DNA of 64,000 nucleotides from Longimicrobium sp. (GTDB lineage Bacteria > Gemmatimonadota > Gemmatimonadetes > Longimicrobiales > Longimicrobiaceae), in the NCBI RefSeq assembly GCF_035474595.1, contig NZ_DATIND010000046.1, positions 62,001 to 126,000 of the forward strand, in the 5' to 3' direction. The notes under the pieces are model-generated. The model did no database searches and was not told the DNA's origin. It was given only the letters and a program-made list of their open reading frames with translations. Shown here piece by piece: positions 10,030 to 58,980 of the stretch. A program made the position numbers and the translations under genes. Every line of letters begins with the position of its first letter. Within the stretch, counting starts at the first letter, position 1.

Positions 10030-10117
10030 GCGAGGCATGCCTCGCGCCCTGCGGTGCTGTTGAAGCCTCGCGCGGTTTGCGAGGCTTTCCGTAGTTGTTG
10101 CCGCGGCTTCAGCCGCC
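10030..10117. repeat. class B two-hairpin repeat with adjacent palindrome
   Basis: A GCGAGGCATGCCTCGC palindrome (10030-10045) is followed by a class B element at 10064-10117: hairpin 1 with arms AGCCTCGC/GCGAGGCT, spacer TTCCGTAGTTGTTGCC, and hairpin 2 GCGGCTTCAGCCGC. It lies between the SDR gene and the oxygenase-reductase gene. Confidence 0.8.
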
Positions 10118-17655: not shown

Positions 17656-20154
17656 TCATTCCTCCACCCGCGCCACCGTCCCCTGCGCGCCGTTCACGCG
17701 GACGCGCTCGCCGTCCTTCAGCGCGGTGAGGGCGCCGTGAACGGCCATCACCGCGGGGACGCCGACCTCGCGGGCGGTGACGGCGCCGTGCGAGAGCGGG
17801 CCGCCGCTCTCCGTGACCACCGCGACGGCGGAGTAGAAGAGCGGCGTCCACGCGGGGTTGGTCGTGCGCGCGACCAGCACCGAGCCGGGGGTGAAGCGCG
17901 CGAAGTCCTCCACGCCGTGCACGCGGCAGACGGGCCCCTCCGCCACCCCCGGCGAGCCCGGCAGCCCGCGCAGCGCGCCCTCCGGCGGGGCGGCGGGCTC
18001 CTCGCCGTACACGCGCGGCGGGGTGCGATTCTTCGCCGCATCGTACTCCGCGCGGTTACGGCGCGCCTCGTCCGCGGCGGCGGCCCGGGCATCCTCATCT
18101 CCCTCCATCAGCGCGGTCAGCGTGCGCTTGTGGAGGAAGAAGACGTCGTCGCCATCCTCCAGAATCCCCCGCCCGGCAAGGCGGCGGCCGGCCTCGGCAA
18201 TGGCGGCGCGGAAGGGGATGGTGAGGCGCGTGGTCTGGTAGTGCTCCAGGTCGTCCAGCCCGGTGTAGGCGCGCGTCAGGCGCAGCATCTCCGCGGCGAA
18301 GTTGCGCAGCCCCTCCGGCATCGCCGCGAGAAAATCGCGCTCGGCGGCGGACTGGCGCGCGCGCAGCTCCACCTCGCGCTCGGCGGGGTCGGCCACGTCG
18401 CCCTGCATCAGCATCAGCCGCAGATTTTCGAGGACGACCCACGGCTGGCCGATCCACGTCGGCACGTACGCATCGAAATCCACCTCCCGATGGCCGTGGT
18501 TCTCCAGGAAGCGTCCGAACGCCGCCGCGAAGCCGGGGAAGCGCTCCAGCATCCCCATCTCCCACACCTGTCTGCGGTCGGTGGAGACGAGCAGCCGCTC
18601 CAGCTCCGGCTCGTCGCGGACCGTGCGGTAGAGGCGATATAGATCCCCGTTGACCAGGTTCGTCTTGGTCTCGCAGAAGCAGGTGAGCGCGTCGTACAGC
18701 GCGGGCGCGCGCTCGCGGCCGACGAGCATCGCCACGACCGTGAAGAGCGTGCGGTGCAGCACGCCCTGGGTGATGGAGATGGCGATGTTCGGGCGGAAGT
18801 AGCCGCGCCCCAGCGCGTCGACGGCCTGGAGATGGCGCCAGAGCGCGGCGTCGTCCAGCGAGCCGAGATCGACGGCGGAGAGGCGGCCGAGGGTGAGGAG
18901 GTAGCGGTCCAGATCGCGCGCCCAGGTGACCGGGAGCTCCTGCACCCAGCGGTAGCGCTCGATCCAGTCGTCCTTGCGCGCCTGCAGCTCGTCGAGCGTG
19001 TCCACGCGCACCTGCAAGCCCTGCGTGAACAGCTGCACCGCCGTCTGGTTTCCGTAGATGTACCCCTCGAAGCGCTCGAACCACGTCCCCGCGAAGGGCG
19101 GATAGCCCAGCAGGCCGAGGGAGAAGGCGAGCGATTCGTGGAAGCCCTCGGTGGTGAAATCCCACGTGAGCGGGGTGATGGGATTGGGGAAGCGCTCGGC
19201 CGATTCGTCGCGCGTCCACCGCGGCGGGAACTCGGTGACGGGGCGCGACTGGAGGAGGTACAGCTCGCCGCGCGCGACCGCCCACTCGGTGTCCTGCGGG
19301 AAGGCGTAGAAGCGCTCCACGCGGATCACCAGCTCGCGCAGCCGCGCCAGCTCGCCGTCCGCCAGCGCGGGCGCGGAGCGGCGCTCGGGCGCCACCTCCA
19401 CGTGCTCCGACCCGTTTTCGGTCGACACGATCGCGTGCGTCTTCTCGCCGATCGAGCGCTCCAGCACCTCGCCGGTGCGCTTGGAGACGACGTACTGGTC
19501 GATGCCGCCCTCGCCCGAGACCACCGTTTCGCCCAGCCCGTACGCGGCGTTCACCACGATGCGGTCCAGGTCGCCGCTCACGGGATCGACGGAGAAGGCC
19601 ACGCCGGCCACCTCGCTGCGCACCATGCGCTGCACCACCACCGCCATGGCCACCTCGGCCGCGCCGAAGCCGCGCTCGTGGCGGTAGCGCACGGCGCGGT
19701 CCTCCCACAGCGACGCCCAGCAGCGCCGCACCGCGTCCAGCACGCCGTCCACGCCCGCGACGTCCAGATACGTGTCGTGCTGCCCGGCGAACGCGGCGCC
19801 CGCCAGGTCCTCGAGCGTGGCCGACGAGCGCACGGAGACGCGATCGCGCGTCAGCAAATCGGGGAGCCGTGCCCGCAGCGCCGCGTCCAGATCGCCTGGC
19901 AACGGCGCGGCGACGAGGAGCGCGCGGATCTGGCCGCAGCGCGCGTGCAGGTCCGCCGCGTCCTCCGGCTTCAGCGCGGCCACCAGCGCGTCCAGCCCCG
20001 GCACCGCCCCGACGAACGCGCGGTACGCCGCCGCCGGAACGATGATGCCGGGCGGCACGGGAAAGCCGCCCTGCGTCAGCCGCGCCAGCGACGCGCCCTT
20101 GCCGCCGCTCACGCCCGCATCCGCCGCGGCGATGTCGGTGAATTCGAGGATCAT
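17656..20154 (-). CDS. PEP/pyruvate-binding domain phosphotransferase (rifampicin phosphotransferase-like)
   Basis: An 832-residue protein with an N-terminal PPDK-type ATP-grasp domain (GGKGASLARLTQGGFPVPPG; SVRSSATLEDLAGAAFAGQ; ending LYLLQSRPVTEFP), a central domain of about 400 residues (NPITPLTWDFTTEGFHES), and a C-terminal swivelling phosphohistidine domain with ESGGPLSHGAVTAREVGVPAV (His about residue 787). The same order, ATP domain, substrate domain, His domain, is found in rifampicin phosphotransferase, and the length (about 830-870) agrees. PEP synthase has the His domain in the middle and is therefore less likely. The substrate is not proven: antibiotic inactivation or phosphorylation of another small molecule are both possible. 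Confidence 0.85.
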   Translation of the reverse strand: MILEFTDIAAADAGVSGGKGASLARLTQGGFPVPPGIIVPAAAYRAFVGAVPGLDALVAALKPEDAADLHARCGQIRALLVAAPLPGDLDAALRARLPDLLTRDRVSVRSSATLEDLAGAAFAGQHDTYLDVAGVDGVLDAVRRCWASLWEDRAVRYRHERGFGAAEVAMAVVVQRMVRSEVAGVAFSVDPVSGDLDRIVVNAAYGLGETVVSGEGGIDQYVVSKRTGEVLERSIGEKTHAIVSTENGSEHVEVAPERRSAPALADGELARLRELVIRVERFYAFPQDTEWAVARGELYLLQSRPVTEFPPRWTRDESAERFPNPITPLTWDFTTEGFHESLAFSLGLLGYPPFAGTWFERFEGYIYGNQTAVQLFTQGLQVRVDTLDELQARKDDWIERYRWVQELPVTWARDLDRYLLTLGRLSAVDLGSLDDAALWRHLQAVDALGRGYFRPNIAISITQGVLHRTLFTVVAMLVGRERAPALYDALTCFCETKTNLVNGDLYRLYRTVRDEPELERLLVSTDRRQVWEMGMLERFPGFAAAFGRFLENHGHREVDFDAYVPTWIGQPWVVLENLRLMLMQGDVADPAEREVELRARQSAAERDFLAAMPEGLRNFAAEMLRLTRAYTGLDDLEHYQTTRLTIPFRAAIAEAGRRLAGRGILEDGDDVFFLHKRTLTALMEGDEDARAAAADEARRNRAEYDAAKNRTPPRVYGEEPAAPPEGALRGLPGSPGVAEGPVCRVHGVEDFARFTPGSVLVARTTNPAWTPLFYSAVAVVTESGGPLSHGAVTAREVGVPAVMAVHGALTALKDGERVRVNGAQGTVARVEE

Positions 20155-54485: not shown

Positions 54486-54540
54486 GTGTGTACCTTGGGG
54501 GATCTGGGAGATGGATGAGTCACGATCGTCCAAGCCGAAC

Positions 54541-54561
54541 AGCCTCGCGCAGTTTGCGAGG
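54541..54561. repeat. left half of a class B repeat, cut by the TIR element
   Basis: AGCCTCGCGCAGTTTGCGAGG is followed at once by foreign sequence. The missing continuation (GCGAGGCTTCCCGTAG onward) is found at 57468, on the far side of the insertion. The last seven bases, TGCGAGG (54555-54561), are repeated at 57467-57473 as a target-site duplication. Confidence 0.9.
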
Positions 54562-55150
54562 GATTACGCGCGGTCTGCATAAGTGGGGTGCTTTGCAGGT
54601 ACTTAGCGTTGCGCCGGGTGCCTGCTGTCGGGTTGTTACTGTCGGTTGACTCAGGCCGCATCCCGGAATTATGGCAACCCTCGCGGATTCGCTACCCGCC
54701 GGGCTGGCTGAACGCGTACGCTCGCCCCTCTACGTGCGCAGGTCAAGCCAAGGGGATTCGGCCCCACTGGTTTGCGGGTCATACCGGGTCGCTTCCTAGG
54801 TGCTTATCAACCATCCCAGCAGTGACGAAGACGGGACAAGATTGTCCCGTGTTTGCGGCAATACCGCCGCAGTTGAGCGGCAAAGGCCTGTATCACCCGG
54901 ATTCAAGTTTAGACGCAAGTAGTGCATTGTACGGGAGCTTCGATGAGTTTCGTAATCTGCGGAGCACAAAATGCGTTCCAAACTAGCAGAGCCTTGGTCG
55001 ACATCCTTCTGTAGCTCTCGTTCTTAGGGGAATTCGTTCAGGAGAGCGGAGGAGGCAATCGTGCCGGAGAATCCGCCACCCATTGTTAACGGCTCCGACC
55101 GCAGACTCTGACATAACGACGAAATCCACGTTAACGACAAGGAGAGAAGT

Positions 55151-57010
55151 ATGCACACTGACCAATTCACGGCAACGGGCCCAGCCTTTGAGGGAGCAGG
55201 ATTTCCCCGGGCCGCGTTTTCGACAGGCAGCGTGGGAACGGATTCAACCTATGGAGTAAACGTTCAGGGTTCGGTTTGCGGAGTTTACGGCGAATGCGTC
55301 AATGTTTCTCCCGGGACCAGCAGAGAAACGCCAGAACGCAATACGGGAGTGTGTGGAGTAGGAGTCGATTATGGCGTATTCGGGAGAGGGTTTACTACAG
55401 CCGGTGTTCACGGCGAGAACGAGTCTAGCGGCTTTGGTGTGTTCGGTGTGGGGAAGGATATTGCTCTCGGTATGGCTGGAATCAATCAGGTCAAGAACCC
55501 TAATCCAAACGCCAGGAAGATTGCGGTAGGTACCGGAATCGTGGGTGCGACAGAAGGTGGGCTAGGCTTTGGAGTTGTCGGTCTAAGTGTCGATAGCGTA
55601 TCGCCCAGACATGTGCCAAGGGCCGGGCGCGACATTCATAATGAAGTCGTGTTGCCGACTAACCTTAGCAGCGGTATCGGAGTTTTGGGTGCTAGCGATT
55701 CCGGGACGGGAGTCGCCGGATTTAGTAGATCCGGGGCCGGCGTTGAGGGCAAAAGCAATTCTGGGGACGGCCTCGTCGGCAATAGCGATTCTGGGATTGG
55801 CGTGGTAGGCAGGAGCACGTCTGGAATCGGCGGGTTTTTCACTAGCGATTTTAAGGAAGCCGTGGTGGGCAGGAGCGGTGGGCCAAGTGGGGGGGTGCGC
55901 GGCAGTGCTAACAGCGGCATCGGCGTCACAGGGGAGGCCGTTACGGGATTCGGCGTCTTCGGCGATAGCGCAAAGCAATCCGGTGTTGTGGGCAGAAGCA
56001 GGAGTAACAGGGCTCCTGGGGTCTTCGGTGTTTGCGAGCAGATGACTGGCGTGGCGGGTAGAAGCACATCTGCGCCTGGCGTCTTCGGTGAAAGCGTGAG
56101 GCAAGCTGGTGTCATGGGTAGGAGCACTTCTTCGGCCGGCGTCTTCGGCTTTGGAGACGCCCCATTCCAAGTTCCCGGCGTCCCGGCGGGAGTTCTCGGT
56201 GTAAACGACAAAAGTGTTGGGGTCCTTGGTAGCAGTGCGGAGGTAATTGGTGTTTGGGGAAACACTAACCGAGGCATTGGCATCGTCGGCACGACTGATT
56301 CTGGTGAGGGAGTTCCGACGGATCGGATTACTGACCAGGGTATTGGTGTAATTGGACTAGCTACTTCCGGGATCGGAATAGTCGGAATGAGCACTTCTGG
56401 AACCGGTGTCTTCGGCTCGAGTACGACTGGATTGGCGGGGCACTTCAAAGGACCGGTGACGGTTGAGGGAGACATCACGATCATAGGCGGCATCAAAAGC
56501 GCACCTGTGCCTCACCCCGATGGTTCACATACACAGTTTTACTCCATCGAGAGCCGAGAGCGTTGGTTCGAGGATTTGGGGGAGTCACAGTTAGTGGACG
56601 GTAATGTGGAAGTGCGATTGGAGTCGGGCTTCACTGCTCTCATCGAGGTGAACAGCTACCACATTTTTTTGACTCCATACGGGGAGTCCAATGGCCTGTT
56701 CGTAGCGGAGCGCTATGCGACAGGTTTTCGAGTCTCTGAGCAACAGGGCGGTACCAGCAATGTGAGTTTCGCTTACCGGGTGGTCGCGAAGCCCAAGGAC
56801 GGTGTGGCAAATCGATCGGCGGCGGTGACGCTGCCGGAGGTCTTGAGCGAGCTACAACTTCCTGACCTGCGGGTAATAACGGACCTACAAGACTTTGAGC
56901 GACTGTCTATCAGTCCCTTTGACCTCCCAGGCACCTCAATGCCGGACAAGACCCCGAGTAACAGTTCACAACTCGGCGAAAATTACGGTGAAGGTCAGAG
57001 TACCGATTAG
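55151..57010 (+). CDS. fibre-like repeat protein with conserved C-terminal domain
   Basis: A 619-residue protein whose residues about 60-440 consist of some 25-30 short repeats of the type GVxGxSxSGxGVxG, typical of a beta-helical or collagen-like stalk built from 13-16-residue coils. The C-terminal 150 residues are different: TQFYSIESRERWFEDLGESQLVDG, then YHIFLTPYGESNGLFVAERY and FRVSEQQGGTSNVSFAYRVVAK, a domain seen at the ends of other fibre-like proteins (recollection, not checked). There is no signal peptide. A purine-rich GGAGAGAAGT lies just before the ATG. Base composition and codon use differ strongly from neighbours, and the gene is the sole cargo of the TIR element. A surface or tail-fibre-like role is inferred. 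Confidence 0.85.
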   Translation: MHTDQFTATGPAFEGAGFPRAAFSTGSVGTDSTYGVNVQGSVCGVYGECVNVSPGTSRETPERNTGVCGVGVDYGVFGRGFTTAGVHGENESSGFGVFGVGKDIALGMAGINQVKNPNPNARKIAVGTGIVGATEGGLGFGVVGLSVDSVSPRHVPRAGRDIHNEVVLPTNLSSGIGVLGASDSGTGVAGFSRSGAGVEGKSNSGDGLVGNSDSGIGVVGRSTSGIGGFFTSDFKEAVVGRSGGPSGGVRGSANSGIGVTGEAVTGFGVFGDSAKQSGVVGRSRSNRAPGVFGVCEQMTGVAGRSTSAPGVFGESVRQAGVMGRSTSSAGVFGFGDAPFQVPGVPAGVLGVNDKSVGVLGSSAEVIGVWGNTNRGIGIVGTTDSGEGVPTDRITDQGIGVIGLATSGIGIVGMSTSGTGVFGSSTTGLAGHFKGPVTVEGDITIIGGIKSAPVPHPDGSHTQFYSIESRERWFEDLGESQLVDGNVEVRLESGFTALIEVNSYHIFLTPYGESNGLFVAERYATGFRVSEQQGGTSNVSFAYRVVAKPKDGVANRSAAVTLPEVLSELQLPDLRVITDLQDFERLSISPFDLPGTSMPDKTPSNSSQLGENYGEGQSTD

Positions 57011-57267
57011 TAACAGTTAGTTACCAGATTTATTCGCTAACGGCGCAGGTTACGTCATAAAACAAAGCGTTTCCGACGGTGCAACGGCGCGGTTCCAAGC
57101 AATCGCGCCTGGAGCATAGACGCGTACTAACGGTCAGGGTAACTGCCGATGACATCCCCGCTGTCGAGCAGCATTCCGGGTCGGGTGTAAGCTCCGAAAG
57201 TGCAAGGGCCGGGAGAGCGAACACGGATTTCGCCGAAGTTGTATAGAACTCAAACTTGAATAAGTGG

Positions 57268-57310
57268 AAGCCAGGGGCGCCCGGATCAACCGACGCGCCG
57301 CTGGCTTTTC
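57268..57310 (+). terminator. imperfect-hairpin terminator
   Basis: AAGCCAG and GGCGC pair with GCGCC and CTGGCTT around a loop, followed by TTTCT. It lies 258 bases after the fibre gene stop, inside the TIR element. The spacing is long, so a small untranslated RNA end is also possible. Confidence 0.55.
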
Positions 57311-57466
57311 TATGTTCGTAGTCTCACCTCCTGCTGTCTGTTGTGCTGTCGGTCGTTACTGCAAGATGCTCGGATCGGCTCGGGATCGTGTGCAGGTTGC
57401 GCGCGCACACCTAGTAATTACGCCGTTTCCGTGCATCTTGCTGCGTTCGGCCGTGTTCGCGTAATC

Positions 57467-57506
57467 TGCGAGGCTTCCCGTAGCTGTTGCTGCGGCTTCA
57501 GCCGCC
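57467..57506. repeat. right half of the split class B repeat
   Basis: TGCGAGGCTTCCCGTAGC, then TGTTGCT, and hairpin GCGGCTTCAGCCGC, continuing exactly from the left half at 54541-54561. The first seven bases are the duplicated target. Confidence 0.9.
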
Positions 57507-57630
57507 GGTGAGGAAGCCGGATCGCGCGCTTTCTACTGCCCGGCACGTCAGCCGGAAGACACATCGAGTCCTGCTGTGGGTCACGCGGCGCGGCCGAATG
57601 GTTGGGCGGGGTGACGGAAGCGCGAAAACG

Positions 57631-57715: not shown

Positions 57716-58762
57716 TTACTTCGTCGCCGTGCCGCTGGTGAGCGCCGCGGTGGCGGAGTTGTTGTCCAGCAGCTGCCAGCCCGGGCAGCCCGCGCTGGAG
57801 CACGGCACGCCGGTGTATCGCCAGATCCGGCCGTCGCGGTGAAGCTGGTACAGCTGCCCGCCACCGGCCACGATGGACGCCGTGGCGGAGTTGCTGTCGA
57901 TCAGCTGCCACCCCGGGCAGCTGTTGCCGCTGCACGCCGTGCCGGTGTACCGCCAGATCTTGCCGTCGCGGTGCATCTGGTACAGCCGGCCGTCGGTGTT
58001 CACCGCGATGGAGGCGGTGGCCGGGTTGTTGTCCAGCATCCGCCAGCCGGGGCAGCTGCTGCCGCTGCACGGCGTGCCCGTGTACTGCCAGATCTTGCCG
58101 CCGCGGTGCATCTGGTACAGCGAGCCGCCGCCCGCCGCGATCCCCGACGTTTCCGTGTTGTTGTCCAGCATCTGCCACCCCGGGCAGCTGCTGCCGCTGC
58201 ACGCCGTGCCGGTGTACCGCCAGATCTTGCCGTCCTGGTGCATCTGGTACAGCTGGGTGCTCCCCGCGGCGATCGCCGTGGTGGCGGCGTTGTTGTCCAG
58301 CATCCGCCAGCCGGGGCAGCTCTCGCCGCTGCACGGCGTGCCGGTGAACCGCCAGATCTTGCCGTCCTGGTGCCGCTGGTACGGCGTTCCGTCACCGGCC
58401 ACCGCGATGCCGGCCGTGGCGGGGTTGTTGTCCAGCATCTGCCAGCCGGGGCAGCTGTTTCCGCTGCAGGGGAAGCCGGTGTACCGCCAGATGCGGCCGT
58501 TCCCGTGCAGCTGGTACAGCCGCATCCCGCCGCCGGCCAGGGCGGTGGTGTTCGAGTTGTTGTCCAGCAGCCGCCACCCCGGGCAGCTGTTTCCGCTGCA
58601 CGCGGTGCCCGTGTACTGCCAGAGCCGGCCGTCGTTGTGCCGCTGGGAGAGGATGCTTCCTCCGGCGCTCACCGTCTGCGCGGCGGCGCGGCCCCACGCG
58701 CAGAGCAGCAGGGCGGAGCCGACCGGGAGGAGGATGCGTTTGAAACGGGTGATGCGGCGCAT
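57716..58762 (-). CDS. secreted seven-repeat protein, predicted beta-propeller
   Basis: A 348-residue exported protein. After a signal peptide (ILLPVGSALLLCAWGRAAAQ) come seven repeats of about 44 residues of the form LYQxHxDGxIWRYTGxxC, CPGWQxLDNN, and a short AGG-rich turn. Each has two cysteines (CSGxSC) likely to form a disulfide, plus conserved Trp and Asp-Gly. Seven repeats and this length suggest a seven-bladed propeller, like tachylectin-type lectins, with repeated binding sites. The ATG at 58762 has AAGGA upstream. Function is unknown; carbohydrate binding is inferred. Confidence 0.8.
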   Translation of the reverse strand: MRRITRFKRILLPVGSALLLCAWGRAAAQTVSAGGSILSQRHNDGRLWQYTGTACSGNSCPGWRLLDNNSNTTALAGGGMRLYQLHGNGRIWRYTGFPCSGNSCPGWQMLDNNPATAGIAVAGDGTPYQRHQDGKIWRFTGTPCSGESCPGWRMLDNNAATTAIAAGSTQLYQMHQDGKIWRYTGTACSGSSCPGWQMLDNNTETSGIAAGGGSLYQMHRGGKIWQYTGTPCSGSSCPGWRMLDNNPATASIAVNTDGRLYQMHRDGKIWRYTGTACSGNSCPGWQLIDSNSATASIVAGGGQLYQLHRDGRIWRYTGVPCSSAGCPGWQLLDNNSATAALTSGTATK

Positions 58763-58980
58763 GGTGGGTTCCTTCGCGTTGGGCTGGATTGGCTTGCGGC
58801 GCGGCTCGAGCGTGCGGTCCAATGGGGGATGCCGGACCGGGGCTCGGGCTCACGAGGAAGGGACGCCGGGCAAGCCGACAAGGGGAGGGAAGACGAGCGG
58901 CCGGGGGATGAAAGGCCAGGGCTCCGTGACCTTTCTCACGCCGGCCGGGATGGACCGGCACGGTGCCGTCCACTCTCGTC

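Follow-up and report, generated by a model that had tools for sequence, protein, structure and literature searches.

A probable CIME-like, integrase-less element in a REP-like repeat of a Longimicrobium genome

Insertion into a REP-like repeat

In the window, the whole 64-kb stretch of a Longimicrobium sp. genome that was analysed, one copy of a REP-like repeat is split by a segment of 2905 bp (positions 54562-57466), which raises the question of what this segment is and what enzyme could move it. The initial annotation read it as a non-autonomous transposon with 9-bp terminal inverted repeats and a 7-bp target duplication, dedicated to moving a fibre-like gene. As far as the insertion itself is concerned, this reading was borne out: junctions, ends and ORFs agree on a discrete non-autonomous element that carries a cargo gene and splits a repeat copy. 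The segment contains no transposase ORF and, as annotated, a single clear gene for a Gly-rich repeat protein; its GC content (about 0.55-0.60) is lower than that of the surroundings (0.70-0.76).

The left junction (54540-54570) reads ...CAGCCTCGCGCAGTT TGCGAGG|GATTACGCG, and the right junction (57458-57514) reads CGCGTAATC|TGCGAGG CTTCCCGTAGCTGTTGCTGCGGCTTCAGCCGCCGGTG. On the forward strand, the left half of the repeat (CAGCCTCGCGCAGTTTGCGAGG) occupies positions 54540..54561 and ends with TGCGAGG (54555..54561), which is followed by GATTACGCG at 54562..54570; on the other side, CGCGTAATC (57458..57466) is followed by the second TGCGAGG (57467..57473), with which the right half of the repeat begins (57467..57514). 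The halves rejoin as the annotation had claimed, and the repeat is restored once the insert and one TGCGAGG are taken out.

The repeat is present in about 300 copies in the genome. The pattern TTTGCGAGGCTTCCC at no more than two mismatches gave 154+143 matches (297), versus 4+3 (7) for the reversed control pattern. Intact copies read CAGCCTCGCGCAGTTTGCGAGGCTTCCCGTAGTTGTTGCTGCGGCTTCAGCCGCC without a break, and all 31 intact left halves, found in 30 loci of the genome, continue directly into CTTCC. The empty-site evidence for the insertion is paralogous, being provided by other copies of the repeat at the sequence level. The empty site in relatives that the annotation proposed to look for was not found in orthologous position: the gene on the left flank is absent in relatives, the repeat is absent in relatives beside the MFS gene that adjoins a second element of the same genome (G000:C63), and it is absent in genome G001 at the right flank of a related element in a congener (G008:C105). 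No tRNA was detected within the 64-kb window, and there was no Rfam match within its 50-64-kb part.

The repeat contains two short hairpins, GCCTCGC..GCGAGGC and GCGGCTTCAGCCGC, and further copies in the window are located at 10077, 47751, 52459 and 48606(-). The assembly of this genome consists of 163 contigs, many of which (C7, C8, C9, C43, C48, C53, C61-C63, C66 and C67) start at most about 100 bp from a repeat copy; for this reason, the repeat has probably broken the assembly.

Conserved ends and integrase-bearing relatives

A DNA search of 41 genomes with the insert as the query showed that, outside its own locus, the insert is matched only by its two ends. The ends shared with relatives comprise about 100 bp on the left and about 135 bp on the right; they recur at one and the same base of the repeat, always with a common orientation. 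The conserved left end (LE, 54555..54671, +; model R2, alignment A2) has an nhmmer E-value of 1e-20 with a profile partly built from the window copy itself, and it was matched independently to the G008:C105 element by BLAST (E 1e-14). The conserved right end (RE, 57330..57466, +; model R1) aligns over 136 bp with the end of the 14.1-kb G008:C105 element at 93% identity, and it is 83% identical to that of the second element of the window's own genome. Since the right end recurs at these levels in two other elements, the similarity of the ends, as read from the sequences, is not due to chance. Scans of genome_contigs and viral_contigs with the exact RE pattern gave no match. The annotation suggested searching for further elements that share both ends and cargo; the ends were found to recur, each time with a different cargo.

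TGCGAGG is located at both borders, at the same repeat base and in the same orientation, in three elements: the 2.9-kb segment of the window, the 0.88-kb (879 bp) element G000:C63 and the 14.1-kb element G008:C105. An identical heptamer at an identical base in three different elements does not fit a random target duplication and fits a site-specific recombinase. The G008:C105 element, whose two ends lie 14.1 kb apart, encodes an integrase (Phage_integrase PF00589, 9e-11); the 3' end of this gene lies close to the left end, on its inner side. The element also encodes a relaxase (PF03432, 4e-31, plus TraI_middle) and two proteins that are NikA-like and HTH/DnaD-like, respectively; no conjugation machinery or T4SS was matched among the scanned proteins of the element. 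To judge by its gene content, this is the anatomy of an IME.

Further integrases, 64-67% identical, were found in G008:C122, G008:C104 and G015:C198, each beside an LE; the elements are about 43, 13 and 47 kb in size, respectively. A PF00589 recombinase is encoded in both G008:C105 and G008:C104. Model R1 independently located the REs of the 13-, 43- and 47-kb elements, which have the core TGCCGCG or a variant of it. In members that have an integrase gene, this gene adjoins the left end and turns its 3' end towards it, and a relaxase is present in the integrase-bearing members examined in full. The tyrosine recombinase residues R, K, H-x-x-R and Y are conserved in the alignment of the integrase family. 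The second core, TGCCGCG, has GATTC/GAATC-like arms and is located slightly further into a repeat of the same kind, ahead of the hairpin GCTTCAGCCGC or its variant; more right ends, mostly with this core, were found in G008 and G001.

When comparing the 13- and 14-kb elements (G008:C104 and G008:C105; loci L122 and L044), it can be noted that their relaxases are 94% identical and 3.5 kb of their DNA is 93% identical, whereas their integrases are only 67% identical and the crossover sequences differ. This contrast suggests an exchange of modules between the integrase and mobilisation parts. In the 13-kb IME (L122), an HNH endonuclease-like gene (PF01844) adjoins the integrase; possibly, it is a cargo or defence gene.

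By analogy with lambda-type integrases, on which the assignment of core and arm sites is based, TGCGAGG is best read as a 7-bp crossover (overlap) region of attL and attR, and the 9-bp inverted ends as inverted core-type sites, GATTACGCG being the inner site of attL and CGCGTAATC that of attR. The inverted ends of the annotation do exist; what does not hold is their interpretation as transposon TIRs, given that the enzyme encoded in the relatives is a tyrosine recombinase. Inverted core arms around a short spacer are the layout expected of a lambda-type tyrosine integrase, and on circularisation, the attP of the element would be CGCGTAATC-TGCGAGG-GATTACGCG, with two 9-bp arms in inverted orientation and a 7-bp spacer between them. 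Both ends also contain pairs of CTGTCNGTT motifs, 12-13 bp apart and in one orientation, which are candidate arm-type sites: CTGTCGGGTT (54625..54634, +) and CTGTCGGTT (54639..54647, +), a pair kept in LEs, and CTGTCTGTT (57334..57342, +) and CTGTCGGTC (57346..57354, +) on the right.

Just inside the right end, there is a hairpin (AAGCCAGGGGCGC/GCGCCGCTGGCTT) followed by TTTT (57268..57307, +), a possible terminator that a simple terminator scan did not call; a similar hairpin is located in this place in most relatives.

A search of the 163 contigs of the window's own genome at E<=1e-30 revealed no integrase of the family, and no adjacent integrase-bearing partner of the window element was seen there at this threshold.

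Integrase-less members, proposed movement and alternatives

Besides the window element, there are several members without an integrase, and their genes differ. In its own genome, the 0.88-kb element G000:C63 encodes a 95-aa Cys-rich protein with the leader MKKLTLDLDTLRVESF. The others include elements of 1.56 kb (G008:C103, a 134-aa lipoprotein with a weak Ig-like match), 1.5 kb (G001:C259, a Cys-rich protein with the leader MQKLKLCLDDLQVDTF), at least 1.49 kb (G001:C93, which reaches the contig end and encodes a 116-aa protein), 1.14 kb (G005:C163, a 153-aa protein; weak RE) and about 0.8 kb (G014:C438, with a degenerate left end and the leader MKKLKLDLDQVKVDSF). Partial elements are G001:C48 (LE only, RiPP-like), G001:C241 (RE only, lipoprotein), G001:C39 (LE only) and, in the window's own genome, G000:C66 and G000:C44 (weak LE). 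The sister group with the core TGCCGCG comprises three integrase-bearing elements and several integrase-less ones of 0.8-1.6 kb, some of which still have the 3' part of the integrase gene. Such a range of RiPP-precursor-like, lipoprotein and small-protein genes speaks against a family dedicated to a fibre gene, as annotated.

Codons of the integrase C-terminus are retained at the LE of G001:C259 (E 8e-12), G008:C103 (9e-6) and G001:C93 (4e-5). Because of these remnants, the sequences of the three cassettes show descent from integrase-bearing elements. A fourth cassette has a weak match to the integrase C-terminus (E 0.007); the window element, which stands apart in this respect, has no significant match to an integrase remnant.

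Small Cys-rich genes resembling RiPP precursors, with a K-L-x-L-x-L-x-x-L-x-V-x-S/T-F-like leader, were noted in four integrase-less elements (L045 2894-3280(-); L047 about 9350(-); L113 12052(+); L150 (-)). No modifying enzymes are located beside them inside the four cassettes, and the pinensin leader model NF038180 gave 13.1 and 16.8 bits, below the curated cut-off of 24. The RiPP-like label is a matter of resemblance between sequences only. In G018:C594 (L118), at about 17836-18120, there is a weak RE and, about 110 bp further on, a weak LE in the same orientation, and these may be tandem elements.

Taken with the ends, these members make it very probable that the window segment is a CIME-like, integrase-less attL-cargo-attR element of a family that inserts by a tyrosine integrase at one position of the REP-like repeat. 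The same two ends, with a common insertion base and a common orientation, bound elements that have an integrase as well as elements that lack one, and it can be envisaged that IMEs targeting the repeat provide the integrases for mobilisation in trans. The integrase would bind the inverted cores CGCGTAATC/GATTACGCG around TGCGAGG and the CTGTCNGTT arm pairs in both ends, and recombination of a circular attP with any of the approximately 300 repeat copies, serving as attB, would produce attL and attR. An incoming IME would use its own integrase to recombine its attP with a repeat copy, and the same integrase could also serve elements that have none, provided that their cores and arms match, the cargo gene being a passenger. 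Internal deletion or gene replacement within elements that had an integrase is the probable origin of the integrase-less members, which probably excise and insert only when a compatible integrase is provided in trans by an incoming IME. Since the window's genome contains two TGCGAGG cassettes and a search at E<=1e-30 gave no family integrase in it, the window copy is probably dormant at present, unless an IME arrives or an integrase gene lies in the unassembled part; it may be stranded.

The same structure could be explained as a non-autonomous DDE transposon or mobile insertion cassette with 9-bp TIRs, a 7-bp target duplication and a transposase elsewhere, and short perfect inverted ends with a 7-bp direct repeat around a transposase-free, one-gene segment are indeed what such an element would display. 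A preference for the repeat is not enough to set against it, as a few ISs are site-specific for REPs. Nevertheless, a transposon of this kind is highly improbable here, given that the three elements share the same seven base pairs, which every empty copy of the repeat already contains, that the conserved ends reach far beyond 9 bp and the left end differs from the right one, and that the relatives with an integrase have a tyrosine recombinase gene next to the LE. A TIR transposon was accordingly rejected as a candidate: the matching ends go with a tyrosine integrase, and the duplication does not vary with the target. Even less credit, practically none, can be given to two independent repeat copies flanking ordinary accessory DNA, an alternative that the initial annotation itself had raised. 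The right junction does resemble an intact copy some bases past TGCGAGG (TCGCGTAATC versus TCGCGCGGTT), but the halves are complementary and meet exactly at TGCGAGG, intact copies continue unbroken, and the same split with homologous ends at identical junctions in two other elements rules out unrelated half-repeats.

The more serious competitor, although still unlikely, is a decayed, immobile IME remnant in which the interior was replaced by unrelated DNA, the ends are fossils and the cargo never moved as a cassette. It would agree with the lack of a family integrase in the genome (E<=1e-30), and decay does occur, as the partial degenerate LEs of G000:C66 and C44 indicate; several REs without a recognisable LE point in the same direction. 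In the window element, however, both ends and both cores are intact, as is the cargo's reading frame, and several independent elements of 0.8-2.9 kb have an intact small gene between well-kept ends, which is tidier than random decay would leave them. Intact ends need not be under selection, so a remnant retains some probability.

Beyond the CIME-like reading of the single element, a wider proposal can be put forward only tentatively, with somewhat less than even confidence: a dispersed cassette system, in which integrase-less, mostly single-gene units shuttle among hundreds of REP-like repeats with the help of IME integrases acting in trans. It would include two integrase groups that read two positions of the repeat, and its cargo would consist of RiPP-like precursors, lipoproteins, small proteins and a repeat protein.

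Comparison with known systems, and the cargo gene

Enzyme-less units with passenger genes that are moved in trans are known as mobile insertion cassettes (MICs) and integron cassettes; the former have IS ends and use DDE transposases, the latter attC hairpins and IntI. The window element resembles both in being such a unit, with movement in trans being presumed, and a dispersed cassette system would work similarly to an integron, but without an array. CIMEs are defined as decayed ICEs or IMEs that have kept attL and attR and lost the genes for integration and transfer (PMC5704250). The window insert has neither integration nor transfer genes, and its attL and attR align with the borders of integrase-bearing elements at the same base. 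The described CIMEs are typically in tandem with an ICE or IME at one gene-end site, whereas here units of 0.8-2.9 kb, mostly with a single gene, are dispersed among the hundreds of copies of a repeat and would presumably depend on an integrase acting in trans; the REP-like target, the dispersed single-gene cassettes and this dependence would set them apart from known CIMEs. Most recombinase-encoding IMEs use a specific site at a gene, in a single copy per genome (PMC5704250). G008:C105 and C104 are like them in having an integrase beside one end, a relaxase and an accessory mobilisation protein, and differ in their multicopy intergenic REP-like target with two alternative positions and two integrase groups.

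The pdif (dif) modules of Acinetobacter plasmids are small gene units without a recombinase that lie between core sites of tyrosine recombinases and rely for their movement on an enzyme from outside the module (PMC6449649, PMC12907356). They are associated with the host XerC/XerD and dif-like sites and are mostly located on plasmids. Unlike them, the present elements implicate a dedicated IME-borne integrase, and they have long asymmetric ends and are located in chromosomal repeats. The strand-biased integrative elements (SEs) of Vibrio are tyrosine recombinase elements in which the imperfect terminal inverted motifs C/C' look like TIRs and a 6-bp crossover region looks like a target duplication (PMC9345347). 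These elements encode two integrases of their own, and their targets are not REP repeats. The present case also cautions that an apparent TIR with a 7-bp TSD, as seen in the bare sequence, can represent a core site and a crossover region used by a tyrosine recombinase. No description of REP-targeting tyrosine integrases or of such a cassette system was found in the literature searched, the coverage of which lacks many journals. If the proposal is true, high-copy REP-like repeats are landing pads, a genome-wide set of attB sites for site-specific integrases, and small integrase-less cassettes allow a low-cost, integron-like spread of single genes, notably those for secreted or peptide products. 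The idea is directly testable, because the att sites, the integrase and the target are all defined by sequence.

The cargo gene of the window element (55151..57010, +) is preceded by AAGGAGAG and encodes a protein of 619 aa, which has GVxGxSxSG-type repeats as well as a C-terminal domain at about residues 430-570. The insert, in which this is the sole clear gene, gave no match to an integrase or a relaxase. The protein has no match in Pfam, PHROG, NCBIfam, phage genomes, plasmids or genome_contigs, and a comparison with the PDB gave nothing meaningful (best E 0.47). No homology to phage structural proteins was found in PHROG or in the phage genomes, and the description of the cargo as fibre-like remains a guess. 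The only relatives found are parts of proteins from two genomes that belong to a different family of the same class; these parts are 35-36% identical to the C-terminal domain. A single-sequence AlphaFold2 model was uninformative (mean pLDDT 32). It is plausible that the product is a putative secreted or surface repeat protein. Directly to the right of the insertion, at 57716-58822 (-), the window contains a gene with at least six 44-aa repeats that match the Tectonin domain (PF19193).
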